The notes below the pieces were generated by a model. It made no database searches. It was not told the origin of the DNA and saw only the letters and a program-made list of their open reading frames with translations. Source: Schistocephalus solidus (Eukaryota > Platyhelminthes > Cestoda > Diphyllobothriidea > Diphyllobothriidae). From it: 64,000 nt of DNA. Both the position numbers and the translations under genes were made by a program. The stretch covers positions 1 through 64,000 of the forward strand of contig WEDG01001427.1 of the NCBI GenBank assembly GCA_017591395.1, in the 5' to 3' direction. Numbering within the stretch: the stretch's first letter is position 1; each line of letters starts with the position of its first letter. This document shows positions 1-51,565 of this stretch, one piece after another.

Positions 1-235
1 GGGCGTCCCGGCTGCGCCAGCCACCCTGCGCCATCTCCCATCTCCGGTCTTCTTTGACCTGTCTTGACACCGGGCTCAGGTGAGGGAGGAGGAGAGAGTG
101 CGGTAGCTGCAGCGCAAGGCTTCTTTCAATTAAAACTAATTCACGCGCAAGTCACCGTCCCTGATCCACCCTTCGATGAAGCATACGGTGGACCTCGTCG
201 AAATCGACGGTCGAACTGCCATGTTTCAATTCTTA
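1..235 (+). mobile_element. LINE 3'-UTR fragment (copy 0)
   Basis: This is the 3' end of an EN-RT LINE whose body lies outside the window. It matches, base for base over long stretches, the 3' ends at about 2250-2462 and 7460-7690: the CACCGGGCTCAGGTGAGGG motif, the AATTCACGCGCAAGTCACC motif, and the terminal part around CGGTCGAACTGCC. It has no coding role. The reading frame that runs through it is not conserved between copies. Confidence 0.8.
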
Positions 236-362
236 TCAATATGTATGGCATCAATTCCATTACTCCCACCATCATAGAGACCACATCCATCTTCTCATCG
301 CCTGTTACCCCACCACCGCATCCACAACCGCCTTCGCCTTCACTACCACCACCACCATCAGC

Positions 363-905
363 GATGGTGAATCTCTCCTAAGCTGTACTCAATGCGACCG
401 CACATTCACCTCACGCATCGGCCTGGTCGGTCACTTGCGAATACATCGTACAGAGACTGGTGAGCCAGTGCCTGATACAACATCACACAGCAGAGATCGT
501 CGCCTCCACTGCCCACACTGTCCTCGCGCATTCACTCATCGCATGGGCCTATTCGGTCAAATGCGCATCCATGACAGTGGAATTCACCACTATGCCGACA
601 ACGCCGATACACCATGCACACCCTCCGTTCCTGCCATTCTTAGCGCCTCTGCCACTACCACTACCATGAATGACATCGCCCCAGCCTCTACCGATTTCTC
701 CTGCCCACACTGCGCCCGCAACTTCAACTCACGCATCGGCCTAGTCGGTCACCTGCGAATCCATCGCACGGAGGCTGGTGAACCAGTGCCTGGGGCTCCG
801 ACATACAGTCGACGTGCCCGTCTTAACTGCCCTCACTGCTACCGCACATTTACACACCGCATGGGCCTATTAGGACACATGCGCCTCCACGACAACCTCC
901 GGTAA
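363..905 (+). pseudogene. C2H2 zinc-finger C-terminal region of LINE polyprotein (copy A)
   Basis: An open frame runs from about 363 to the TAA at 903-905. It encodes four fingers of the form C-x2-C-x12-H-x3-H, beginning CTQCDRTF, CPHCPRAF, CPHCARNF and CPHCYRTF. They are joined by the repeated linker RIHRTE-x-GEPVP. In finger 2 the first zinc-binding His is replaced by Gln (GLFGQMRIH). The proline/threonine-rich segment upstream (about 240-360) lies in a different frame, so a frameshift separates it from the fingers. The same fingers end the EN-RT frame of copy B, so this is a LINE tail rather than a host transcription factor. In the LINE the fingers presumably bind nucleic acid; this is inferred. 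Confidence 0.7.
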
Positions 906-3131: not shown

Positions 3132-4070
3132 CAGACTGCAAATACATGCGGTCGAAAAACTCTAAACTATATCAACAACAACTCCTCTCCCAATCCCCCC
3201 AACCGTACCCTTCGAAGTACCCGCTGGGCTGCTCGGGTGAGTCCGCTCACACTAGCAGCCTGGAATGTTCGTTCCCTTTTAGACAATCGGAGGAGCAACC
3301 GGCCGGAACGGAGGACGGCGCTAGTCGCTCGGGAACTGGCGCATCACAAGGTTGACATTGCTGCTCTCAGCGAGACCCGATTCTCTGAACAGGGTCAGCT
3401 GGAGGAGGTGGGTGCCGGCCACACCTTCTTCTGGAGCGGCTGACCAAAGGCAGAGCGAGGCGATGCTAGTGTTGCCTTTGCCATTTGGAATGACATCGTG
3501 GGACGTCTGCCCTGTCTGCCGCAGGATAGCAATGATCGCCTGATGAGCCTCCGCCTGCCTCTTTGGGGAGACCAGTTCGCCACCATCATAAGCGACTACG
3601 CTCCCCCAATGACGAGCTCTGATGCGGCGAAGGACAAATTCTACGAGGACCTGCACGCCTTGCTGGCGACTGTGCCAAAGGAGGACAAGTTAATTGTCCT
3701 TGGTGACTTAAACGCCCGCGTCGGCACAGACCGTGCCTCGTGGAGAGGAGTGCTGGATCCCCATGGTCTCGCTGGCTTCAATGACAACGGTCTTCTTCTC
3801 CTACGAACCTGCGTTGAACACCGGCTTATTCTGACGAACACCTTCTTCCGCCTCCCAAAGCAGCAAAAAGCGACCTGGGTAAATCCTCGATCGAGACACT
3901 GGCACCTCTTGGACTATGTTCTCGTCCGGAGGCGAGATAAACAGGACGTGTTGGTGACAAAGGCGATCCCCGATGCCGATGGATGGACGGATCACGGCCT
4001 CGTCATCTCCAAGATGAGGCTCCGTCTGCAACCCCGCAGGAGACCCCAAGGTAAGCGACCACAAGGTAAG
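3132..4070 (+). pseudogene. AP-type endonuclease domain of LINE copy B
   Basis: The frame opens after a stop at 3129-3131 and shows the apurinic-endonuclease-like fold of LINEs. The landmarks are LAAWNVRSLLDN (Asn of motif I), VDIAALSETRF (catalytic Glu), SDYAPP, VLGDLNARVG (Asp/Asn), LDYVLVRRR and DGWTDHGLVI (the Asp-His end motif). It would nick target DNA to prime reverse transcription. A TGA at 3441-3443 interrupts it while the frame stays the same on both sides, so this is a simple nonsense change. No in-frame ATG precedes the conserved start. An ATG at 3146 lies in another frame, which suggests a lost base near the N-terminus. Confidence 0.8.
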
Positions 4071-6310
4071 TTGAATACTGTTTTGTTGAATGTGCCTGCT
4101 CACCGTCTACATTTTAGCAACGAACTGGCCAACCGTCTATCTCTTCTTCCATGGGCCGATGCGGACGTCTCCGTGGAGAACCGCTGGTGTCAGCTGAAAG
4201 ATAACATTCAATCCACCGCCTGGATTTACTCGGCCGCGCACGTCGTCAGCACCAAGATTGGTTTTGATAACAACGACGCAGCTATCAACGCTCTGCTCGT
4301 AAAGAGGAACCAGTTACACAAAGCCTACATCAATCGCCCTACTGCTACAAACAAGACAGCATTCTACGGAAGTCGCCGCCTTGTACAGCAACGGCTGCGG
4401 GAGGTGCAGGAATCCTGGATGACGCGCAAAGCCGAGGAAATCCAAGGGTACGCGGACCGAAACGAATGGAAGAACTTCTTCGCCGCCACCAAGGCTGTCT
4501 ACAGACCTCAAGTCAAAGGAGCCGCCCCTCTTCTCAGTGCCGACGGCAGGACGCTGCTCAATGAGAAGACGCAAATCCTGATGCGATGGGCAGAATACTT
4601 TCAAAGCGTTCTGAACCAGCCCTCCACCATCTCCGACGCCGCCATTAATCGCCTGCCTGAAGTGGAAATCAACGCCGACCTTGATCTCCCGCCCTCTCTC
4701 CAAGAAACCATCTGAGCCGTGCAGCAACTCTCCAGCGGGAAAGCACCTGGCTTGGATGCGATCCCTACTGAGATTTACAAGCCTGGCGGACCCCAACAGA
4801 TGAACCGACTTACAGTGCTCCTCCAGAAGATGTGGCACCAAGGGCGAGTCCCTCAGGATTTCAAAGACGCAACCATTTTCCCCCTCTACAAGAAGAAAGG
4901 GAACCACCAACTCTGCGACAACCACAGAGGAATCTCGCTGCTGAGCATCACCGGAAAGATCTTCACGCGCATTCTCCTCAATCGCCTGAACGCTCACCTG
5001 GAGCAAGAACTGCTCCCGGAAAGCTAATGTGAATTCCAACGACACCCAGGAATAATCGACATGATCTTCGCTGCTCGACAGCTACAAGAGAAGTGCCAAG
5101 AGATGCGGACTCACATCTACACTACATTCGTGAACCTTACGAAAGTCTTTTATATGGTGATGTGGAAAATCATGCATAAATTCAGCTGTCCTGAACGTTT
5201 CACGCATATGGTACCTCAGCTTCTCGACGGGATGATGGCGCGCGTTACTGACAATGGGACAGTATCCGAAGCATTCGCAGTGACCAATGTAGTGCAGCAG
5301 GGCTGCGTCCTTGCACCTACCCTCTTAAGTCTCATGTTCTCTGGCATGCTAACTGACGCCTACCATGAAGAACGCCCCGGGATCCACATCGCCTAACGGA
5401 TGGACGGCCGACTTCTCAACCAAAGACGCATGCACTTCCGCTCGCGTGTCTCCACAGCCACCATCGATGAACTTCTCTTCACGGGCGACTGTGCACTTAA
5501 TGCAATGACAGAAGAGGAAATGCAAAGGAGCATGGACCTCTTCGCTGCCGCCTCGTACAATTTTTGACTTCGCATCAAACTGAGAAAACGGTTGTGATAC
5601 ATCAGCCACCACCCAATACCACCTACTCCGCAGCTCACATTAATGTCAATGGCGTCCAAATGAAATCTGTGGATACCTTCACGTACCTGGGCAGCAATAT
5701 CAGCCGCAGCACCAAAGTTGATGATTAGATCGCCCATCGGATCGCCAAAGCCAGCCAAGCCTTTCACGCATGCAGAACGTGGTCTGGAATCGACACGGTC
5801 TTCACCTCAGCACCAAACTCAAGATGTACAAAGCTGTCATATTGCTGACGCTGCTGTATGGAGCGGAAACGTGGACAGTCTACCAAAAGCAGGCACGGAA
5901 GCTCAACCACTTCCATTTCAGATGCCTTCACAGAATACTAAAGCTGACATGGCAAGGCAGGATACCGGACAGGTAAGTGTTGGAACGAACAGGCCTTCTC
6001 AGCATTTATGCTCAGCTGAAACAACTGCAACTGCGATGGAGCTGCCACCTTGTTCGGATGGATGACGAACGACTACCCAAACGAATCTTCTATGGAGATG
6101 TCGCCATGGGTTCTCGTCGACAAGAAGGTTAAGTACGACGCTACAAGGACACTCTGAGGACTTCTTTGAAGCAACTGCAAATCAACCCGGCGATCTGGGA
6201 GGACTTCGCCCAGAACCAACCTGCTTGGAGAAGAACAGTGAAGACAAGGGCAGCACTGTACGAAGCCAACAGGATCTCCGCCACCAAGACCAAAAGAGCG
6301 GCACGAAAGT
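4071..6310 (+). pseudogene. Reverse transcriptase region of LINE copy B (dead)
   Basis: The sequence runs through the EN-RT linker to SSGKAPGLDAIPTEIYK, then CDNHRGISLLSITGKIF (fingers), TTFVNLTKVFYMV (motif A region, where family members read VDLTKAFDTV), VQQGCVLAPTLLSLMFS (motif B) and LLFTGDCALN (motif C). Motif C at 5478-5489 reads FTGD where related elements have FADD, so one catalytic Asp is lost. In-frame stops fall at 4713, 5025, 5394 and about 5566. A one-base loss near 5577 shifts the frame. A nonsense codon follows at 5726 and another frameshift at about 5762. The C-terminal part ([27 protein letters not shown]) is well kept. Confidence 0.8.
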
Positions 6311-6339
6311 CACCAGCGCCCCGGACAAACACCGCCAGG

Positions 6340-6821
6340 CCCAGGCCCTGTCAATATGCCCGCGTTGTCAACGCATCTTCCACGCGCGAATCGGCTTGGT
6401 TGGACATTTTCGGACGCAATGCACACACAATCCGACAATTCCATTTTCTACGTCAAATCCTGCCAACCTTCTTTTGGATTCCCCCTCCCTCACCCCTGGC
6501 ATCAGTTCCATTACTCCCACTATCATAGAGACCACATCCCAATACTCATCACCTGTTACCCCCAACAAAACCACCACCACCACCACTAACATCAGCGATG
6601 GGGACTCTCTTCTAAACTGTCCTGACTGCAACCGCACATTCACCGCACGGATCGGCCTGATCGGTCACTTGCGAATCCATCGTACAGAGACTGGTGAACC
6701 AGTGCCTGGAGCACCAACACACAGCAGAGATCGCCGCCTCCACTGCCCTCACTGTCCTCGCGCATTCACTCATCGCATGGGCATATCCGGTCACATGCGC
6801 ATTCATGGCAACCAGCGGTAA
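6340..6821 (+). pseudogene. Zinc-finger C-terminal tail of LINE copy B
   Basis: This part reads in a different frame from the preceding RT tail, so a frameshift lies between about 6310 and 6345. It carries one C2HC-type finger (CPRCQRIFHARIGLVGHFRTQC, quoted in two parts: CPRCQRIF and GHFRTQC) and two C2H2 fingers starting CPDCNRTF and CPHCPRAF. A Ser/Thr/Pro-rich spacer with a short ACC repeat separates the first from the second. It ends at TAA 6819-6821. Position and content match 250-905 of copy A, which shows that the fingers belong to the LINE. A nucleic-acid-binding role in target choice or RNP assembly is inferred. Confidence 0.75.

Positions 6822-14312: not shown

Positions 14313-14354
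<42 letters not shown>
14313..14354. repeat. (AT)n microsatellite
   Basis: About 21 uninterrupted AT dinucleotides. Confidence 0.95.
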
Positions 14355-14357
<3 letters not shown>

Positions 14358-14671
14358 AAACAAACGTATGACACTCACTGATGTGGTTAGGATCACACTT
14401 GATCCCATTATGTCCGCCCGTCCGCCAGCTAGCCACTGGCGATAAACGAACGTTGTGTCATAAGACACATGCCACATATAATGCACTGTTACGTTGCTAA
14501 AGATGCAACAGGCAAGACGTAGACAGCTGTTTCACGGTCGTTACCGATCATCAGTACGTCATCTGCAGTTGACTAAACAATGGGCCCGTGGCTCAATGGT
14601 AGATCGGTCGACTCAATAATTAAAGATCACGTGTTAGAAATCCAGATGGTTTCACATTTGGGATAGAGTAC

Positions 14672-14716
14672 GACTGGCTGATGACGGCAAATAAGCCAGA
14701 AATGGCCATTTAGGTC
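14672..14716 (+). ncRNA. Hammerhead-like motif, array unit 1
   Basis: Stem I strand GACTGG 14672-14677, core CTGATGA 14678-14684, stem II GGC/GCC with a six-base loop, GAAA 14699-14702, self-complementary stem III ATGG/CCAT, predicted cleavage after T14710. The 3' stem I strand (TAGGTC) has one mismatch. Confidence 0.55.
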
Positions 14717-14975
14717 TCCCATGTATTTGTCGGCTTCACTTTATTAACATATGGAACATGTCGCTATGCAACTGCCTGCGAAGGCTCCAAAGTGAGCAGC
14801 AGGACACAACGGAACATGCATGTTACCTAAGCAGATTGGCAAGCCGAACACTTTTTCATATTCCCAATCGCAACCGATAAAACAACGGGCCCACGGCTCA
14901 ATAGTTTAGCGTTCGACTAGATTACCAAAGATCGCGTGTTAGAATCCGAGGTGGTCCACATTTGGGATTGAGTAT

Positions 14976-15020
14976 GACTGGAAAATGAAGGCTCTTAAGC
15001 CAGAAATGACCTTTCGGATT
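14976..15020 (+). ncRNA. Decayed hammerhead-like motif, array unit 2
   Basis: The core reads AAAATGA where other units have CTGATGA. GAAA is kept at 15003-15006. The equivalent cleavage point would be after 15014. Probably inactive. Confidence 0.4.
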
Positions 15021-15143
15021 TCCCATGTATTTGTCGGTTCCACTTTATCACCCAATGCAACACGTTGCTATGCAACTGCCTGCGAAAGCTCTACAGTAAG
15101 CACCAGGGCACAATGGATTGGCCTGATAACTTGGGATTTGGAA

Positions 15144-15189
15144 TGACTGGCTAATGAAGGCTCATTATCTAGAAATGGCCTTTCGGATT
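15144..15189 (+). ncRNA. Decayed hammerhead-like motif, headless unit
   Basis: The core reads CTAATGA, the stem II loop is altered, and GAAA is kept at 15172-15175. The unit lacks its tRNA-like head, so the distance to the previous motif is about 169 nt instead of 304. Confidence 0.4.
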
Positions 15190-15448
15190 TCCCTTGTGTT
15201 TGTCGGTTCCACTTAATCAACATATGCAAAACGTTGCTATGAAACTGCCTGTGAGGGCTCTAAAGTGAGCACCAGGGAAAAACGGAACATGCATGTTACC
15301 TGAGCAGATTGGCGAGCCGCAAACTTTATCATATTCCCGATCACAACTGAAAAAACAACGGACCAGTGGCCCCATGGTAGATCGTTTGACTCAATTATTA
15401 AAAGTCGCGTGTTCAAATTTCAGGTGGTCCACACATTGGATTGGGTAT

Positions 15449-15493
15449 TACCGGCTGATGACGGCTAATATGCCAAAAATGGCCGTTCCGGTC
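15449..15493 (+). ncRNA. Hammerhead-like motif, array unit 3
   Basis: Stem I here is ACCGG 15450-15454 with CCGGT 15488-15492, a C-G pair where most units have a U-G wobble. CTGATGA is intact at 15455-15461. The GAAA box is changed to AAAA. Cleavage point after 15487. Confidence 0.5.
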
Positions 15494-15751
15494 TCCCTTG
15501 ACTTTTTCGGTTCCATTTTATCAACATATGCTACACGTCGCTATGCAACCGCCTGCGAGGGCTCTCAAGTGAGCTCCAGGGCACAACGGAACATGCATGT
15601 TGCTAAAGCAGATCGGTGACCCGCACACTTTCATCATATTCCAAATCGCAACCGACAAAAAACGGGCCCATGATTCAATGGTAGAGTGTTCAACTTATTG
15701 ACCAAAGGACTCGGGTTTAATACCATGTGGTCCAAACTTAGGATTGGGTAT

Positions 15752-15796
15752 GACTGGCTGATGACAGCTTATAAGCCAGAAATGGCCATTCCTATC
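15752..15796 (+). ncRNA. Hammerhead-like motif, array unit 4
   Basis: GACTGG 15752-15757, CTGATGA 15758-15764, stem II AGCT/AGCC variant, GAAA 15779-15782, ATGGCCAT stem III, predicted cleavage after T15790. The 3' stem I strand is CCTATC, so stem I is partly weakened. Confidence 0.55.
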
Positions 15797-16056
15797 TTCC
15801 TTGTCTTTGTTGGTTCAACGTTATTAACATATGCAACACCTCGCTATGCGTCAGCCTGCGTTGGCTCTTAAGTGAGCTCCAGGGCATAACATAACTGGTA
15901 TGTTCCTTTACTATATCGGTGAGCTACACACAATAATCCTATTCTTGATCGCTGCTGAACAAACAACGGGACCATGGCTCAATTGTAGAGCGTTTGAAAC
16001 AATTGCCAAAGGTCACGTATTCAAATCCCAGGTGATCCACACTTGGGGCTGGGTAT

Positions 16057-16101
16057 GACTGGCTGATGACGGCTAATAAGCCAGAAACGGTCATTCCAGT
16101 C
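16057..16101 (+). ncRNA. Hammerhead-like motif, array unit 5 (perfect stem I)
   Basis: GACTGG 16057-16062 pairs perfectly over six bases with CCAGTC 16096-16101: a U-A pair where other units have U-G. CTGATGA 16063-16069, stem II GGC/GCC around TAATAA, GAAA 16084-16087, predicted cleavage after T16095. Stem III reads ACGG/TCAT and is weaker. Confidence 0.6.
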
Positions 16102-16361
16102 TTCATTGTCTCTGTCGGATCCACTTTATGCACATGAGCTACACGTCACATTGCGATTGCCTGCGAGGGCTATAAATTTGGCTCCAGGGCACAAAGATTC
16201 GTGCATGTTCGTTAAGCAGTTCGGTTAGCCGCATACTATCATCATGTTTCTGAACGCAACCAACAAATCAACGTGCCCTCGGCTCAAAGGTTGAGCGTTC
16301 GACTCAATTACCGAATGTCGCCTGTTATAATCCCAGGTTGTCCAAGTTTTGGGTGAGTTAT

Positions 16362-16406
16362 GACTGGATGATGAAGGCTTATAAGACAGAAATGGCCATT
16401 CCGGTC
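16362..16406 (+). ncRNA. Hammerhead-like motif, array unit 6
   Basis: Stem I is complete (GACTGG/CCGGTC), but the first core base is A (ATGATGA) and stem II is broken (GGC/GAC). GAAA 16389-16392. Probably inactive. Confidence 0.45.
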
Positions 16407-16665
16407 TCCCTTGTCTTTGTAGTTTCCACTTTATTAATTAATGCTATATTTGGCTTTGCGAATGACTGCAAGGGCTCTGAAGTGAGCTTTAGGGCACAAA
16501 GGAGCATGCATATTCTAAAAACAGATGGTTTAGCCACACACTATCATCATATTTCTGATCGCAGCCGACAAAAAATGGTCCCTTGGCTCAAAAGCAGAGC
16601 ATTACAATGAATTACCAAATGTTGCGTGTTCAAATCCCAGGTAGTCCACACTTTGGATTGGGTAT

Positions 16666-16710
16666 GAGTGGCTGATGACGGCTTATAAGCCAGAAAAAGC
16701 CATTCCGGCC
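16666..16710 (+). ncRNA. Hammerhead-like motif, array unit 7
   Basis: CTGATGA 16672-16678, stem II GGC/GCC around TTATAA, GAAA 16693-16696, cleavage point after T16704. Stem I is GAGTGG/CCGGCC with two mismatches, and stem III is changed to AAAG/CCAT. Confidence 0.5.
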
Positions 16711-16880
16711 TCCCATGACTTTGTCGGCTCCTCATTATCAACGGTTGCTACACGTTTGTATGGCATATCCTGCGAAGCTCTAAAGTGTGCTCAAGGGCAC
16801 AAAGGAACATGCATGTTCCTAAAGCAGATTGGTGAGGCACACACATTAATCATATTCCCGATCTCAACCGACAAAACAAC

Positions 16881-16952
16881 GGACCCATGGCTCAATGATA
16901 GAGCGTTCGTCTCACTTACCAAAGGTTGTGTGTTCGAATCCCGGGTGGTCCA
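16881..16952 (+). promoter_or_regulatory. tRNA-like head with Pol III A and B boxes (unit 8; type example)
   Basis: The A box TGGCTCAATGA is at 16888-16898 and the B box TGTTCGAATCC at 16931-16941. The ends pair as a short acceptor-like stem (GGACC 16881-16885 with GGTCC 16947-16951). The segment TAGAGCGTTCGTCT...AAAGGT resembles the D- and anticodon-arm region of tRNA-Cys, but the anticodon loop and T stem are decayed, so this is not a working tRNA. Equivalent heads begin each complete unit of the array. Spacing and boxes fit an internal RNA polymerase III promoter reading into the hammerhead downstream. Confidence 0.7.
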
Positions 16953-16969
16953 CGCATGGGATTGGGTAT

Positions 16970-17014
16970 GAATGGCTGATGACGGCTAATAAGCCAGAAA
17001 TGGCCATTCCGGTC
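16970..17014 (+). ncRNA. Hammerhead-like motif, array unit 8
   Basis: CTGATGA 16976-16982, GGC-TAATAA-GCC stem II, GAAA 16997-17000, ATGGCCAT stem III, predicted cleavage after T17008, 3' stem I CCGGTC. The 5' stem I strand is GAATGG, giving one mismatch. It lies 18 nt downstream of the best-kept tRNA-like head. Confidence 0.6.
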
Positions 17015-17273
17015 TCCCTTGTCTTTGACGGTTCCACATTATCAACATATGCTACACGTCACAATGCGACAGTGGACAAGGGTTGTAAAGTGAGCTCCAG
17101 GGCATAACGGAACGTGCATGTTCCTTAAGCAGATCGCTAGGCTGCACACTACCATCATATTCCCGATCACAACCGACAAACAACGGGCCCGTGGCTCAAT
17201 GCTTGAGGGTTCAACTTAATAACAAAAGATCGCGCGTTCGAATCCCAGGTCATCCAAACTTGGGATTGCGTAT

Positions 17274-17318
17274 GACTGGCTGATGACGGCTAATAAGCCA
17301 GAAATGGCCATTCTGGTC
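17274..17318 (+). ncRNA. Hammerhead-like motif, array unit 9
   Basis: GACTGG 17274-17279 pairs with CTGGTC 17313-17318 (two wobbles). CTGATGA 17280-17286, GGC-TAATAA-GCC, GAAA 17301-17304, ATGGCCAT, predicted cleavage after T17312, exactly 304 nt after the unit 8 site. A run of four T at about 17463 near the end of the array could stop Pol III. Confidence 0.6.
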
Positions 17319-17478
17319 TCCATTGTCTTTGACGTTTCCACGTTAACAAAATTTGCTACACGTCACTATGCGACCGTGGATAAGGGCTGTAAAGTGAGCT
17401 CCAGGGCATAGCGGAACATGCATGTTCCTTAAGCATATCGTCGAGCCACACAAAACATCATAATTTTGATCGCAACCT

Positions 17479-18594
17479 AACAAAGCATCTTGATAACAAG
17501 AAAAGATAAAGGAACAGGCATAGTTATAATGAACAGCTCACACTTTGTAACTAAGATGCACTCCATACTATCCGACCAAAACAAATTCAGGGAGGTACAT
17601 AAAGAAAAGGATTGCACCGATGAAGTAGAGGCACAATTGACCGACTGCTTAAAAGGACTCCATGCAGGTGGTTTTCTAAGTGACCGTTACCTCGAACGCC
17701 TCAGACAAGTTGGTACACACATCCCTCGACTCTATGGTCTACCGAAAATCGACAAAGAAGGCTTGCCACTTCGTCCAATTTTACACATGCAAAACTCTCC
17801 TTGTCATGCCATAGCAAAGTGGTTAGCAGAGACACTAAAGCCTGTAAAACATCAGCAAGCACCACGTTGCTACTGAGATACCTTCGAATTTATTGAAGAC
17901 GTCAAAGACCTTAACTTAAATGGCACGAGGATGCTATCTTTGGATGTCTCATCACTGTTTACAGACGTCCCTGTCACTGAGAGAGTCACTTACCTCTGTG
18001 AATTCCTATTGACCAGTGAGAAAGAAATAGGAATACCGACAAATGCAATTAAAGAATTATTACTAAGATGCACGTTAAATGTGCAGTTCCTTTTTAACAA
18101 CCAGCTATACAGACAAATAGACGGCGTTGCTATGGGCTCGCCACTCGGACCTCTTCTAGACGATGTCTTCATGGGCAAGCTGGAGAAATTTCAGCTAAGC
18201 GGACAGATCAGTAAGTTAAGACACTACGGTCATTACGTCAACGACATCTTTGCAATTGTCACAGAAGAAACCAATGTAGACGAACTCTTAAACCCTGTAA
18301 ACCAAGCACATCCGTCGATCAAATTCACGTTGAAGATAGAAAGATTAGGTTCACTCCCTTTCTTAGAGGTCTTTCTAAGCAGAAGACCTGATGATACCAT
18401 CCGAAGGAGCGTTCATCGAAAGAAAACCTGGTCTGGGCAATATCCGAACTTTGGCAGTTTCGGACCTCTCCAACAGAAAGGCAATCTAGTCCGTTGCTTA
18501 GCGCAAAGGGCAAGAAAAATTTGCTCGGCAAAAAGTATCGAGGAGGAGCTTGGGAAGATCCAGAACCTACTTCGAGTGAATGGATACCCTGATC
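17479..18594 (+). pseudogene. Penelope-like element, RT part (upstream partial copy)
   Basis: The frame starts near 17481 (KDKGTGIVIM) and continues through the PLE/telomerase-type RT: LYGLPKIDKEGLPLRPI, LSLDVSSLFTDVP (motif A), VAMGSPLGPLLDDVF (motif B), HYVNDIFAIV (motif C) and the thumb region SIRRSVHRKKTWSG-like. Motif C at 18234-18245 is YVND; PLEs and the copy at 42516 have YVDD, so a catalytic Asp is changed. A TGA at 17874-17876 breaks the frame, while sequence before and after it stays in phase. The copy lacks its N-terminus, and stops at 18594 where the second copy begins. No endonuclease part is present. Confidence 0.85.
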
Positions 18595-20573
18595 GGCATA
18601 GTTATAAAGAACAGATCAGACTTTGTTACTAAGATGCACTCCATACTATCCGACCAAAACAAATTCAGGGAGGCTCATAAAGAAAAGGATTGCACCGATG
18701 AAGTAGAGGCACAATTGACTGACTGCTTCAAAGGACTCCATGCAGGTGGTTTTCTAAGTGACCGTTACCTCGAACGCCTCAGACCAGTTGGTACACACAT
18801 CCCTCGACTCTATGGTCAACCGAAAATCCACAAAGAAGGCTTGCCACTTCGTTTAATTTTACACATGCAAAACTCTCCTTATCATGCCATAGCAAAGTGG
18901 TTAGCAGAGACACTAAAGCCTGTAAAACATCAGCAAGCACCACGTTGCTACTGAGATACCTTCGAATTTATTGAAGACGTCAAAGACCTTAACTTAAATG
19001 GCACGAGGATGCTATCTTTGGATGTCTCATCACTGTTTACAGACGTCCCTGTCACTGAGAGAGTCAATTACCTCTGTGAATTCCTATTGACCAGTGAGAA
19101 AGAAATAGGAATACCGACAAATGCACTTCAAGAATTATTACTAAGATGCACGTTAAATGTGCAGTTCCTTTTTAACAACCAGCTATACAGACAAATAGAC
19201 GGCGTTGCTATGGGCTCGCCACTCGGACTCTTCTAGACGATGTCTTCATGGGCAAGCTGGAGAAATTTCAGCTAAGCGGACAGATCAGTAAGTTAAGACA
19301 CTACGGTCATTACGTCAACGACATCTTTGCAATTGTCACAGAAGAAACCAATGTAGACGAACTCTTAAACCCTGTAAACCAAGCACATCCGTCGATCAAA
19401 TTCACGTTGAAGATAGAAAGATTAGGTTCACTCCCTTTCTTAGAGGTCTTTCTAAGCAGAAGACCTGATGATAGCATCCGAAGGAGCGTTCATCGAAAGA
19501 AAACCTGGTCTGGGCAATATACGAACTTTGGCAGTTTCGGACCTCTTCAACAGAAAGGCAATCTAGTCCGTTGCTTAGCGCAAAGGGCAAGAAAAATTTG
19601 CTCGGCAAAAAGTATCGAGGAGGAGCTTGGGAAGATCCAGAACCTACTTCGAGTGAATGGATACCCTGATCGGTTTAGTACAAAGCATCTTGTCGCACGA
19701 CCGGTAAAACCAGCCAAGGTAATTGTGAAAAAAAGAAAAAAACTATTCCTCAACGTGCCCTTTCAAGGGGATGTGGCTAGTGAACTACTGAAAAGACGCC
19801 TAAACCAAGCCGTTACACAAACGTTCCCAGCAGCGAAACTTCAGATAGTGTTCTCAACCAACCCTCTTTTACGAGGCGAAGGTAAGGATAGGTTGCCGGC
19901 TCAGACCATCTCCATGTGCATTTACTCATTTACTTGCTCCTGTGGAGCAGGTTATATTGGTCACACTAGTTGGTGCCTATCCAAAAGAATTAGAGAACAC
20001 CTCCCAGCATGGCTGAACAAAGGGGAAGTCAAGAGCATAAAAAGCGCCATCCTTGCACATCTTGTTGACACCGGACATAGTGTGGACCCCAGCGAATCAT
20101 TCACTTTAATTTATACGTTTCCACCAAGCTACCCCAATACACTGGGTCAACGTTTACTAGCAGCAGCAGAAGCGACTGCCATTAGGTTGAAGAAGCCGGT
20201 CTTGTGCGCACAAAAGAACCTCGTACAAGCTCCGCGCTTAGCTTTGCCAACGACCGCTTAACTGCATGCATTCTCCCGCGCCATCTCTGTCGTCCCCCTT
20301 CCCCTGGAACAGATCTACCAAGCACTCATTGTCGCTCATCATACTGTTTCTTATCACACTGTTTCTTATCATCCTCCCCCTATGCACAGCTCTCAGACAA
20401 CCCAAATAAACGGACGAATATTATCGATTTCATGTTTTAAATTTCTACTATTTTTCAACGTTTCCCTGTAGCTGTACTGGTCTGAAGAGAAGTTATCGAA
20501 AGCAGCGTGTATGCTTGCCAAGTCATCTTTTGAATCTTTTAATGGGTATTTTCACAACTTCAATCTTCAGAAA
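18595..20573 (+). pseudogene. Penelope-like element, RT plus GIY-YIG endonuclease (downstream copy)
   Basis: This is nearly identical to 17517-18594 at an offset of 1078, then continues to the true 3' end. It shares the TGA (18952-18954) and the YVND motif (19311-19322), and has its own one-base deletion at about 19228. The long frame 19248-20261 (337 codons) runs from after motif B through the thumb to the endonuclease. The endonuclease shows CIYSFTCSCGAGYIG (a Cys-rich linker joined to the GIY-YIG core), KRIREHLP (Arg), and LLAAAEATAIRL (catalytic Glu). The endonuclease half looks undamaged. The untranslated tail runs to about 20573 and includes a hammerhead motif. Confidence 0.85.
20478..20520 (+). 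ncRNA. Hammerhead ribozyme motif in PLE 3' end
   Basis: The parts are: stem I TGGT 20478-20481 with GCCA 20517-20520; core CTGAAGA 20482-20488 (fits CUGANGA); stem II GA/TC around a five-base loop; GAAA 20498-20501; stem III AGCA 20501-20504 with TGCT 20512-20515; cleavage predicted after T20516. All invariant core bases are present. Two other copies of the same PLE family carry the motif at the same place. Minimal hammerheads in PLE flanking repeats are established. Activity of this one is untested, and its two-base stem II is weak. Confidence 0.65.
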
Positions 20574-41340: not shown

Positions 41341-42968
41341 GACTAGTTGGCGAGCATACGCGTGCTTTCGATAAATTCTCATCGGGCCAGTACATTTATA
41401 TGGGAAACGGAGTACAAGGTAAGACATGAAATCAATAAGGTTCATCTCGTCATACCAGTGAGTCGTGTTAAAAGGGGGAAGGGGTGGCGATAAGAGACAA
41501 ATGGTTAAGCAGCAGTGAGGGTTTGGTGGTCTTTTACGAAAGGGAGGGGGGACGGGAGGGGAAGAGGAGAACGGCCTGGACTGCATGTAATTAAGCCGTC
41601 GTTGGTCATCTAAGCACGGAGCTTGTAGGAGGTTCTTATGTGCGCACAAGACCGGTTTTCTCAACCGGATGGTGGTGGCTTCTGCTGTTGCTAGCAGCCG
41701 CTGACCCAGTGAAGTGGGATAGTTTGGTGGCATATTATAAATCACATGGAAAGGCTTCGTTAGGATCCACATGGTGCCCGGAATCCACCAGGTGTGCGAG
41801 AATCGCACTGTTCATGCCGTTTACTTCGCCTTTTCTCAGCCATGCCGGGAGGTGTTCCTTTATTCCTTTGGCTAGGCGCCGACTCGGGCGACCAATATAA
41901 CCCGCTCCACAGGAGCAAGTGAATGAGTAGATGCACATGGAGGTGGTCGAGGCCGGCAACCTATCCTTACCTTCCCCGTGTAAAACAGGGTTGGTTGAGA
42001 ATAATATCCAAATTCTCGCCGCAGGGAAGGTTCCTGTGACGGCTTGGTCAAGGCATCTTTTCAGGAGTTCACTTGCCGCATCCCCTTGGAAGGGGACTTT
42101 GAGAAATAGGGTTTTCTTTTTTTCAGCAGTAAGTGTGGTGGGTTTTTCTGGACTTGCGACCATATTCTTTGTAATAAATCTATCCGGAAAGCCATTTTCG
42201 AGAAGTAAGTTCTGGATCTTTCATGGCTCTTCTTCGATACAGTCCGCCGAACACATTTTTCTAGTCCTTTGCGCCAAACAACGGACAAGATTGCGTTTTT
42301 TGGATGGGAACGAAACTGCCAAAATTTATATATATTGTCAAGACCAGGTTTTCATTCGATGAACGTCCTTCGGACACTACCGTCAGGTCTTCGGCTTAGG
42401 AGAACGTCTAAGAAAGGAAGCGAACCTCCAATGTGAACTTTATGGCCGGATGAGCTTGATTAACAACATCTAAAAGTGCATCTACATTGGTTTGTGCTTT
42501 GGCAATCGCAAAGATGTCGTCAACGTAGCGACCGTAGTGTTTTAGTTTATTGATCTGATCGCTTAACTGGGATTCCACCAGTTTGCCCATGAAGACATCG
42601 CTAAGAAAGGTCCAAGGAGTTATCCCATAGCTACACCATCTATTTGTCTGTAAAGTTGGTTGTCAAAAAGGAACTGCACGTTTAATATGCATCTTAGTAA
42701 TAGTTCCTATAGTGCATTCGTCGGTATTCCTTTTTCTTGCTGATTTGTCAATAGGAATTCGCAGATGTAATCGACTATCTCAGTGACCGGCACGTTTGTA
42801 AAAAGCGATGAGATGTCTAAAGAGAGCATCATCATGCCGTTTAAGTTTATGTGTTGGACGTCGTCAATAAATTCGAACGTATACCGATAACTATGTGGTG
42901 CCAGGTGACGCTGTATGGGCTTGAGTTTCTCCGCCAACCATTTTGCTATTGCATGATACAGTGAGTTG
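41341..42968 (-). pseudogene. Penelope-like element, minus copy of a head-to-head pair
   Basis: Reading from 42968 downwards: YHAIAKWLAEKLKPI, FEFIDDV, LSLDISSLFTNVP (motif A), RYVDDIFAIA (motif C intact at 42516-42527), then broken thumb sequence, VPFQGDAASELLKR, SMCIYSFTCSCGAGYIGRP (GIY-YIG), LRKPVLC, a stop, and a 3' tail ending at about 41341. Motif B and the thumb are frameshifted, and another frameshift lies near 41740 inside the endonuclease. The N-terminus is missing. It is the same family as 17479-20573 but a clearly distinct subfamily. Confidence 0.8.
41348..41389 (-). ncRNA. Hammerhead-like motif in PLE 3' end (minus copy)
   Basis: Stem I TGGC (41389-41386) pairs with GCCA (41351-41348). 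Stem II GA/TC, GAAA, and stem III AGCA/TGCT are all kept. The core reads CCGATGA, with the invariant U changed to C, so activity is doubtful. Confidence 0.5.
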
Positions 42969-42971
42969 TGT

Positions 42972-44725
42972 GCCAACCAGAAGGGGCACACATCCCTTGG
43001 TTGTATGTTCTACCGAAGATCCACAAGAAGGGTCTGCCAGTTCATCCAATTTTAGACATGCGAAACTCACCGTATCATGCAATAGCAACATGGTTGGCGG
43101 AGAAACTCAAACCCATACAGCGTCAATTTGCGCCACGTAGTTGTCAGTATAAATTCGAATTTATTGACGACATCCAAGACATAAACTTAAACGGCATGGT
43201 GATGCTCTCTTTAGACGTATCATCGCTTTTTACAAACGTGCCGGTCGCTGACACAGTCGATTACATCTGCGATTTCCTATTGACAAATCAGCAAGAAAAA
43301 GGAATACCGACGAATGCACTTAAAGAACTATTACTAAGATGCACATAACAACGCAGTTCCTTTTTGACAACCAACTACACAGACAAATAGATGGTGTAGC
43401 TATGGGCTCGCCCCTTGGACCTCTCTTAGCCAATGTCTTCGTGGGCAAACTGGAGGAATACCAGTTAAGCAATCAGATCAATAAACTAAAACACTACGCT
43501 CGCTACGTTGACAACATCTTTGCGATTGAAATGCACAAACCAATGTAGATGCACTCTTAGATGTTGTTATCAAGCACATCCGGCCGTCAAGTTTACACTG
43601 GAGGTGGTAACGGGAGGTACGCTTCCTTTCTTAGACGTTCTCCCAAACCGAAGAACTGACAGTAGTGTCCGAAGGAGTGTCCATCGAAAGAAAACCTGGT
43701 CTGGAAAATATATAAATTTTGGCAGTTTCGTTCCATCTAAAAATCGCAATCTTGTCCGTTGTTTGGCGCAAAGGGCTATAAAAATTTGTTGTGCGGACTG
43801 TATCGAAGAAGAGCTCCGAAAGATCTAGAACTAACTTCGCGAAAATGGCTTTCTTGATAGATTTGTTACAAATAATATGGTCACAAGTCCAGAAAAACCC
43901 ACCACACTTACTGCGGAAAAAAAGATAACCCTATTTTTCAAAGTCCCCTTCCAAGGGGATGTGGCAAGTGAACTCCTGAAAAGATGCCTTGACCAAGCCG
44001 TCGCAGGAACCTTCCCTGCAGCGAGAATTCGGATATTATTCTCAACCAACCCTGTTTTACACGGGGAAGGTAAGGATAGTTTGCCGGCTTAGACCACCTC
44101 CATGTGCATCTACTCATTCACTTGCTCCTGTGGAGCAGGTTATATTGGTCGCCCGAGTCGGTGCCTAGCAAAAAAAAAGGAACACCTCCCGGCATGGCTG
44201 ACAATAGGTGAAATAAGGGCATAAATAGCGTGATTCTCGCACACCTGGTGGATTCCGGGCCCCGTGTGGACCCTAACGCAGCCTTCCGTGTGATTTATAA
44301 AGTGCCACCAAACTATCCCACTTCACTGGGTCAGCGGCTGCTAGCAACAGCAGAAGCCACCGCCATCCGGTTGAGAAAACCGGTCTTGTGCGCACAAAAT
44401 AACCTCCTACAAACTCCGCGCTCAGATGCCAATGACGGCTTAATTTCATGCAGTCCAGGCCGTTCTCCTCTTCCCCTCCCCTCTCCCCTCCCTTTCGTGA
44501 ACGACCACCAAACCTTCACTGCCGCTTAACCATTTGTCTCTTATCGCCACCCCTTCCCTCTTTTAACACGACTCACTGGTATGACGAGATGAACCTTATT
44601 GATTTCATGTCTTAGCTTGTACTCCGTTTCCCATATAAATGTACTGGCCTGATGAGAATTTATTGAAAGCACGTGTATGCTCGCCAACTAGTCTTCTGAA
44701 TCCTTTGATGGGTATTATCACAACT
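42972..44725 (+). pseudogene. Penelope-like element, plus copy of a head-to-head pair
   Basis: Reads LYVLPKIHKKGLPVHPI, YHAIATWLAEKLKPI, LSLDVSSLFTNVP, GVAMGSPLGPLLANVF (motif B intact), RYVDNIFAIE (motif C at 43504-43515 with the second Asp changed to Asn), SVRRSVHRKKTWSG, VPFQGDVASELLKR, the GIY-YIG region near 44100-44170 (broken by a stop at 44090 and frameshifts) and a tail to about 44725. The N-terminus is missing and meets the minus copy at about 42970. The pyrimidine-rich stretch at 44460-44500 is shared with the minus copy tail. Confidence 0.8.
44645..44686 (+). ncRNA. Hammerhead ribozyme motif in PLE 3' end (plus copy)
   Basis: Stem I TGGC 44645-44648 with GCCA 44683-44686, core CTGATGA 44649-44655, stem II GA/TT (one wobble) around ATTTA, GAAA 44665-44668, stem III AGCA/TGCT with a six-base loop, cleavage predicted after C44682. 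All core bases are present. Homologous to the motifs at 20478-20520 and 41348-41389 (minus). Confidence 0.65.
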
Positions 44726-51481: not shown

Positions 51482-51565
51482 CAAATTTGCAACTCCTCAG
51501 GCTCAAACCCGTGACCTGTTGGTTAGAGGTCCAACGCGCTAACCATTGAGCCATGGGCTATTTGA
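51482..51565 (-). repeat. tRNA-like SINE head (minus)
   Basis: The minus strand has the A box TGGCTCAATGGTTAG (near 51540-51555), an anticodon-like hairpin GTTGG/CCAAC with an eight-base loop, and the B box GGGTTTGAGCC. The first bases match the heads of the array at 14575 (CCCATGGCTCAATGG), so the two may share a tRNA ancestor. The loop size and weak T stem rule out a functional tRNA. Confidence 0.5.

Follow-up and report, generated by a model that had tools for sequence, protein, structure and literature searches.

A tandem tRNA-headed repeat with a conserved, palindromic hammerhead-like body in the tapeworm Schistocephalus solidus

The first 64,000 nucleotides of contig WEDG01001427.1 of the tapeworm Schistocephalus solidus (assembly GCA_017591395.1), hereafter the window, contain on the plus strand a tandem array of about 9.5 copies of a unit of about 304 bp, two of the units being truncated, and no open reading frame (ORF) of at least 130 amino acids lies inside the array. 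A previous inspection of the same DNA from its letters alone, here called the original prediction, had described such units as a candidate cestode retrozyme in which a tRNA-like head is joined to a hammerhead ribozyme-like core. The tandem repeat is borne out, and its bounds are here placed at 14582-17487. The parts of the element in the window are the following.

14582-17487, plus strand: tandem array, about 9.5 units of about 304 bp (repeat and unit alignment)
14886-15131, plus strand: truncated unit with damaged core (AAAATGA)
15132-15358, plus strand: truncated unit without tRNA-like head, core CTAATGA
16881-16952, plus strand: best tRNA-like head of the window (Rfam tRNA model: E 0.013 and 26.7 bits, short of the gathering score, 29)
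16964-17018, plus strand: body of unit 16880-17183, with core, GAAA, stem II and palindrome intact and 5 of 6 stem I pairs
17268-17322 (unit positions 85-139), plus strand: complete body with core (CTGATGA at 17280), GAAA, palindrome, stem I 6/6, stem II 4/4 and 1 of 3 pairs of an outer helix
52058-52164, plus strand: old interspersed copy of the array body, 71% identical

Another old interspersed piece of the same element lies at 51503-51559 on the minus strand. The array is one of many in the 603.7-Mb, 8,019-contig genome, and the genome-wide copy count that the original prediction had called for indicates that the repeat is very abundant: a 30-base stretch of the body has 21,011 exact occurrences (10,839 + 10,172) and its reversed control has none, while a one-unit query gave at least 112 matches among the best 39 of 5,560 candidates scored. 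Compared with the genome-wide consensus, which was built from 149 full units in fetched relative loci, the window units are 78-87% identical, and they are old. A scan of viral contigs for the array body gave 0 matches.

Unit positions 1-72 of the consensus are tRNA-like in a degenerate form and carry an A box (TGGCTCAATGG) and a B box (GGTTCGAATCC); TTTT is absent from the unit. ARAGORN finds no tRNA within the window, and in 13 relative loci it reports 2 heads, both as tRNA-Leu(caa). In 20 relative loci, some of them overlapping one another, the Rfam tRNA model gives 27 scores above its cut-off, 35.1 bits being the highest. The boxes in the consensus and the tRNA matches in the relatives are what is looked for in a tRNA-derived short interspersed element (SINE). 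Of the proposed tRNA-like head with an internal RNA polymerase III (Pol III) promoter, a degenerate head and both boxes can thus be recognized in the consensus, whereas the heads of the window remain below the Rfam cut-off.

The head is followed, after a linker, by a conserved 69-nt body (unit positions 85-153), and the remainder downstream is a variable tail. Positions 85-139 fit a minimal palindromic type I hammerhead with predicted cleavage at 129/130, and the consensus can be read as GACUGG - CUGAUGA - C GGCU AAUA AGCC A - GAAA - UGGCCA - UU / CCGGUC, with the core elements CUGANGA, GAAA and UH present in order. Stem I has 6 bp (GACUGG/CCGGUC) in exact register and is extended past a small internal loop by an outer GGG/CCC helix. 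The fit holds only with the palindrome AUGGCCAU taken as stem III, the arrangement of dimer-type hammerheads: within a monomer stem III would consist of 2 bp (A-U and U-A, A15.1-U16.1 among them) closing GGCC, and because it is so short, two copies are predicted to pair through the 8-base palindrome, giving a helix of at least 8 bp. A conventional hammerhead with the stem III GGCC-AUUCC-GGUC was also considered and rejected, since it calls for a bulged U at position 15.2 and leaves a stem I of only 2 bp next to the core; a relaxed descriptor of this conventional stem III matched 2 of 100,000 shuffles.

Both CTGATGA and GAAA are kept in 6 of the 10 window units, and core, palindrome and stems I and II are all complete in one (17184-17487), in which cleavage is predicted between 17312 and 17313. 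With a single complete unit among ten, and an imperfect B box in that unit, the window copies need not be active. The claim that one strand of the unit carries both a tRNA-like head and a hammerhead-like core is supported; the unit is tandem, retroelement-like and as long as a retrozyme. Of the features by which retrozymes are recognized, small size, tandem arrangement and the absence of an ORF of at least 130 amino acids are seen in the array, the ribozyme being only hammerhead-like.

A resemblance of this kind could arise by chance in a satellite DNA. Such an explanation would gain from the missing covariance-model match and the missing covariation described below, and from the fact that our descriptor of the minimal hammerhead was composed after the motif had been seen. 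None of 1,083,200 dinucleotide shuffles of the consensus matched this descriptor, however, and a palindrome-only descriptor gave 176 matches on both strands of 263,899 bases (the window plus loci L031-L070, all except the window picked for holding the repeat), of which 174 fall in the array body and 2 in a separate motif that we label Penelope-type, so that no background match was left. Together with the comparison of two families that follows, these results led us to reject chance resemblance, to which we assign next to no probability.

The second family, represented by a 310-bp unit at L032 4738-5047, belongs to the same genome and has a different tRNA-like head and tail. Between the two families 55 of 72 head positions, 8 of 12 linker positions and 105 of 151 tail positions are identical, against 67 of 69 positions in the body (85-153), i.e. 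97% identity in the body and 67-76% elsewhere, a contrast not expected of a fortuitous match. Both body differences, at positions 92 and 132, affect stem I without breaking a pair (A-U to G.U, and U.G to U-A); the L032 copy also has one extra T inserted near position 145. Tandem copies of this second tRNA-headed family, in which mainly the body is shared, extend over a short stretch of L032 (4738-5204), and the family is also seen in L053, L056, L059 and L069.

Within the body, the 13 catalytic core positions diverge less (0.037) than the other 42 positions of 85-139 (0.081) in 137 distinct copies from the window and L031-L050, a set from which duplicates, rows having over 8 gaps and the loci L051-L070, which had been picked by the 30-mer, were excluded. 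A difference as large was reached in 11 of 20,000 base-matched permutations, and in 19 of 20,000 for the 61 more divergent rows of L031-L050. Judged from these alignments, the core is under strong constraint.

The surroundings of the array bear on how the repeat may move, and also on whether it is an independent element at all. The neighbouring features are these.

14313-14354, strand not assigned: (AT)21 run that lies 3' of the minus-strand motif below
14515-14560, minus strand: Penelope-type minimal hammerhead-like motif (descriptor scan) with stem I GACGTA/TACGTC, CTGATGA, GAAA, palindrome ACAGCTGT and UC
17481-20261, plus strand: two joined, broken Penelope-like reverse transcriptase copies adjoining the array, apparently 5'-truncated (one piece matches RVT_1 at 4e-06, short of the curated cut-off)

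The label of the minus-strand motif is our own, and the Penelope and GIY-YIG names at 17481-20261, where the second copy presumably has a GIY-YIG-like end, as well as the 5' truncation, are likewise our reading of the sequence. Two more Penelope-like copies, in inverted orientation, are seen at window positions 41611-44421. Zinc-finger ORFs of the C2H2 type at 180-905 (plus strand, by eye) and 6066-6821 (plus strand, Pfam) and an endonuclease-like ORF at 3444-4715 (plus strand, Pfam match below cut-off) are likely parts of non-LTR (long terminal repeat) retroelements, and presumably resemble those of diphyllobothriidean tapeworms.

The motif at 14515-14560 lies about 20 bp upstream of the array and has U.U at 10.1/11.1, 6 bp in stem I and a palindrome (ACAGCUGU) as stem III; its segment lengths (7, 14, 4, 6, 2) are identical to those of the array body, and a nearly identical copy is found at L037 4697 (plus strand). 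Minimal type I hammerheads have been reported in Penelope-like elements (PMC7761336, in the part cited), which according to the cited part of another study make up about 10% of two diphyllobothriidean assemblies of 653 and 796 Mb, SINEs making up about 1% (PMC8166898). With a Penelope reverse transcriptase fragment directly after the array and a motif of identical geometry just before it, and given that Penelope-like elements carry hammerheads and that one of them prefers AT-rich targets (PMC11167929, in part), the array might be a portion of such an element, a pseudo-LTR, instead of an independent non-autonomous one. We find this highly improbable: the unit has a tRNA-like head of its own, among 20 other loci of 7-10 kb only 3 contain Penelope coding pieces (several of these loci being mostly array and showing little flank), and the junction at 17481 looks like a chimeric insertion because the adjoining Penelope copy appears 5'-truncated.

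The ends of arrays elsewhere in the genome are informative about insertion. The 20 loci L031-L050, of 7-10 kb each, contain 35 arrays of at least 100 bp. Among the 24 arrays with at least 92% identity, 15 of 19 visible 3' ends adjoin a TA run of at least 10 nt, whereas such a run is found at 2 of the 19 5' ends and at 46 of 5,000 stretches drawn at random outside arrays; in the 11 older arrays such a run adjoins 4 of 9 visible 3' ends. The 3' ends of the 24 arrays fall at unit positions 154-171 (8), 274-281 (9) and 41 (2), and the 5' ends are scattered. By analogy, these ends are compatible with a model in which multimeric (or circular) RNA is copied into (TA)n by target priming, certain internal starts being preferred. 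In vitro, one Penelope element cleaves AT-rich DNA and begins reverse transcription within its RNA, as the cited portion of that work describes (PMC11167929). After same-strand pieces within 60 nt of each other had been merged, arrays within 150 nt of each other were head-to-head in 5 cases and tail-to-tail in 4. These inverted neighbours in L031-L050, often with (TA)n at their 3' ends, resemble twin-primed insertions.

Computed folds are consistent with pairing between units. In both families, two 57-nt bodies folded without constraints take up double-hammerhead helices, at -46.5 and -46.7 kcal/mol, and the predicted minimum-energy fold of a 608-nt two-unit transcript contains them too. The modelled ensemble of the 304-nt monomer is dominated by monomer-type stem I, with mean probabilities of 0.71 for stem I and 0.55 for stem II, and in three units inter-unit stem III reaches about 0.26 per pair. 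Folding energy itself was dropped as evidence, its values not being unusual.

A body of results nevertheless weighs against a working hammerhead. The predicted dimer folds add an A14-U17 pair in the core, so that stem III runs into stem I; they are thus not exactly the active form, since an active hammerhead would lack such a pair. Modelled inter-unit stem III has a probability of only 0.09 in two units, the dimer energy is ordinary (24 of 400 shuffles are as low and 81 of 400 show as large a gain), and a 98-nt body stretch of a relative has a folding z of -1.34. Core conservation is not significant in the 11 window rows alone (1,853 of 20,000 permutations). No stem shows covariation significantly above shuffles in 153 distinct rows that include L051-L070, the pairing cells numbering 70 against a shuffle mean of 74.9 for stem I, 24 against 27.4 for stem III, 16 against 15.1 for stem II and 23 against 21.6 for the outer helix, the last two values being reached by 77 and 87 of 300 shuffles; since inactive copies drifting without selection would give the same picture, this is no evidence for a ribozyme and does not exclude one. 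None of the 19 3' and 19 5' array ends lies at the predicted cleavage site 129/130, and the Penelope element studied in vitro inserts without need for hammerhead cleavage, no reads ending at the cleavage site being described in the cited part of that report (PMC11167929).

Also on this side stands the covariance-model search, a check that the original prediction had proposed. No Rfam hammerhead was found in the window or in 20 relative loci at the gathering score, in the array at E<=10, or in five relative loci at E<=10 and six at E<=5; the array motif reaches the cut-off neither of RF00163 nor of any other Rfam hammerhead. Across the genome RF00163 gave no match among the best 73 of 91,055 candidates, a result that is uninformative, with so few candidates scored and with 0 of 14 control genomes matching either. 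Rfam equally misses the neighbouring motif at 14515-14560, so that a missing match may say little for motifs of this type; this suggests that palindromic hammerhead-like motifs can escape Rfam models.

The main doubt concerns the base of stem II, where the consensus of 149 units has a C.A mismatch at 10.1-11.1, in hammerheads usually a G-C pair (G at position 117 in 9 of the 149). Apart from 15.1-16.1 this is the most conserved pair of hammerheads, U.U being the best-tolerated mismatch and C.A ranking below it (PMC3088659, in the part cited), and because of this mismatch activity may be low or lost. With the Rfam threshold not reached and the 10.1-11.1 pair not formed, we do not file the motif as a canonical hammerhead; it is a variant. 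The original prediction of a hammerhead-like core accordingly holds to the extent that the core is conserved and fits a palindromic type I motif. Its suggestion that array transcripts cut themselves into monomers fares less well: given the weak stem III, the dimer type and the C.A at the base of stem II, efficient monomer self-cleavage is not to be assumed.

SINE superfamilies with conserved central domains combine a tRNA-derived head and a shared central domain with differing tails, and the repeat could be an ordinary tRNA-derived SINE of this kind, in which a descendant of a hammerhead has lost its cutting activity and the domain is retained for a different purpose, e.g. reverse transcriptase binding. 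That would suit the C.A mismatch, the lack of an Rfam match, the array ends away from the cleavage site and the several old single copies that have only the body in common, and also a further point against a pure ribozyme, namely that the conserved block continues for about 14 nt beyond the motif (positions 140-153), to TTTGTCGG. It accounts less readily for the conservation of the 13 catalytic positions, which exceeds that of adjacent positions of the domain, and for all helices and the palindrome being in register, and we consider it unlikely.

We therefore favour, and think probable, a tRNA-promoted, retrozyme-like SINE or satellite whose conserved domain is a dimer-type hammerhead-like motif; the array would probably be a decayed example of an abundant non-autonomous retroelement, often tandemly repeated, in which a tRNA-derived head and the 69-nt body precede a variable tail. 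Whether consensus-like copies really cleave themselves is, from their sequence, about an even question. What the sequences show is the make-up of the unit, its abundance, the constraint on it, a geometry compatible with dimers and 3' ends linked to (TA)n; by analogy we infer a cycle of Pol III transcription, dimer cleavage, ligation and copying in trans. Pol III or read-through transcription would yield multimers, as the consensus has no TTTT terminator; adjacent units would pair up as a double hammerhead; a cut just behind unit position 129 would release RNAs of about 304 nt, which a host ligase may circularise; and a reverse transcriptase supplied in trans, perhaps a Penelope-like one, would copy multimeric or circular RNA into (TA)n DNA, so that a Penelope enzyme may be what moves the repeat. 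We regard as doubtful the bolder proposal that a whole SINE superfamily in this genome has the dimer-type hammerhead as its conserved central domain, i.e. a Pol III-promoted retrozyme cutting only when two units meet, with a ribozyme captured from Penelope-like elements and with multimeric or circular RNA copied into (TA)n by Penelope reverse transcriptase. If true, it would be a SINE parasitising a Penelope element rather than a long interspersed element (LINE). Sm-alpha-like SINEs, retrozymes and Penelope elements would be linked by a very abundant repeat in which a minimal palindromic hammerhead is joined to a tRNA-like promoter, and such a repeat would be a single place in which to ask whether tandem arrays and circular RNA are driven by dimer-type cleavage.

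The original prediction knew of no described counterpart in tapeworms. No paper with a tapeworm hammerhead in its title is among the open-access matches listed. Retrozyme-like tandem repeats with type I hammerheads have been reported bioinformatically in 'platyhelminths' (PMC7229834, in part). Likened by general description only, SINE superfamilies with central domains differ in that the domain here matches a ribozyme. Penelope-like hammerheads share the minimal type I motif, with segment lengths at 14515-14560 (minus strand) the same as in the body, and the (TA)n-flanked array ends fit the AT-rich targeting described for one Penelope element (PMC11167929, in the part cited); the array unit, in contrast, is non-coding and tRNA-headed, differs in sequence outside the core and has C.A where the Penelope-type motif has U.U. 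In its cited part, PMC7761336 notes that no function is known for the minimal hammerheads of Penelope-like elements, and that metazoan retrozymes seem to be without promoters.

Closer parallels are offered by the Sm-alpha and Sj-alpha repeats of schistosomes, flatworm SINE-like elements with a tRNA-derived part (tRNA-Gln-TTG in Sm-alpha), a hammerhead and very high copy number (PMC2770079, in part). The likeness is one of description, and the Sm-alpha hammerhead is active and fast in the accounts cited (PMC6155905; PMC8490949, both in part), whereas the array motif has a palindromic stem III and is mispaired at 10.1-11.1. The non-LTR retrozymes of metazoans (axolotl, newt satellite, mussel and coral) are tandem repeats of about 150-400 bp with type I hammerheads, which the array resembles in size, arrangement and hammerhead-like motif, and those of amphibians have a weak stem III and dimeric cleavage, as predicted for the array motif (PMC7229834; PMC7761336, both in part); the array unit stands apart from them in its tRNA-like head with A and B boxes. 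In axolotl, as described in the cited portion of one study, the tandem units are of 330 and 350 bp and both are far more active as dimers, one family having a single stem III pair under a palindromic tetraloop and the other two such pairs under a tetraloop and U.U at the base of stem II (PMC7229834). By analogy with these systems, the S. solidus element would work like Sm-alpha and the amphibian-type retrozymes.

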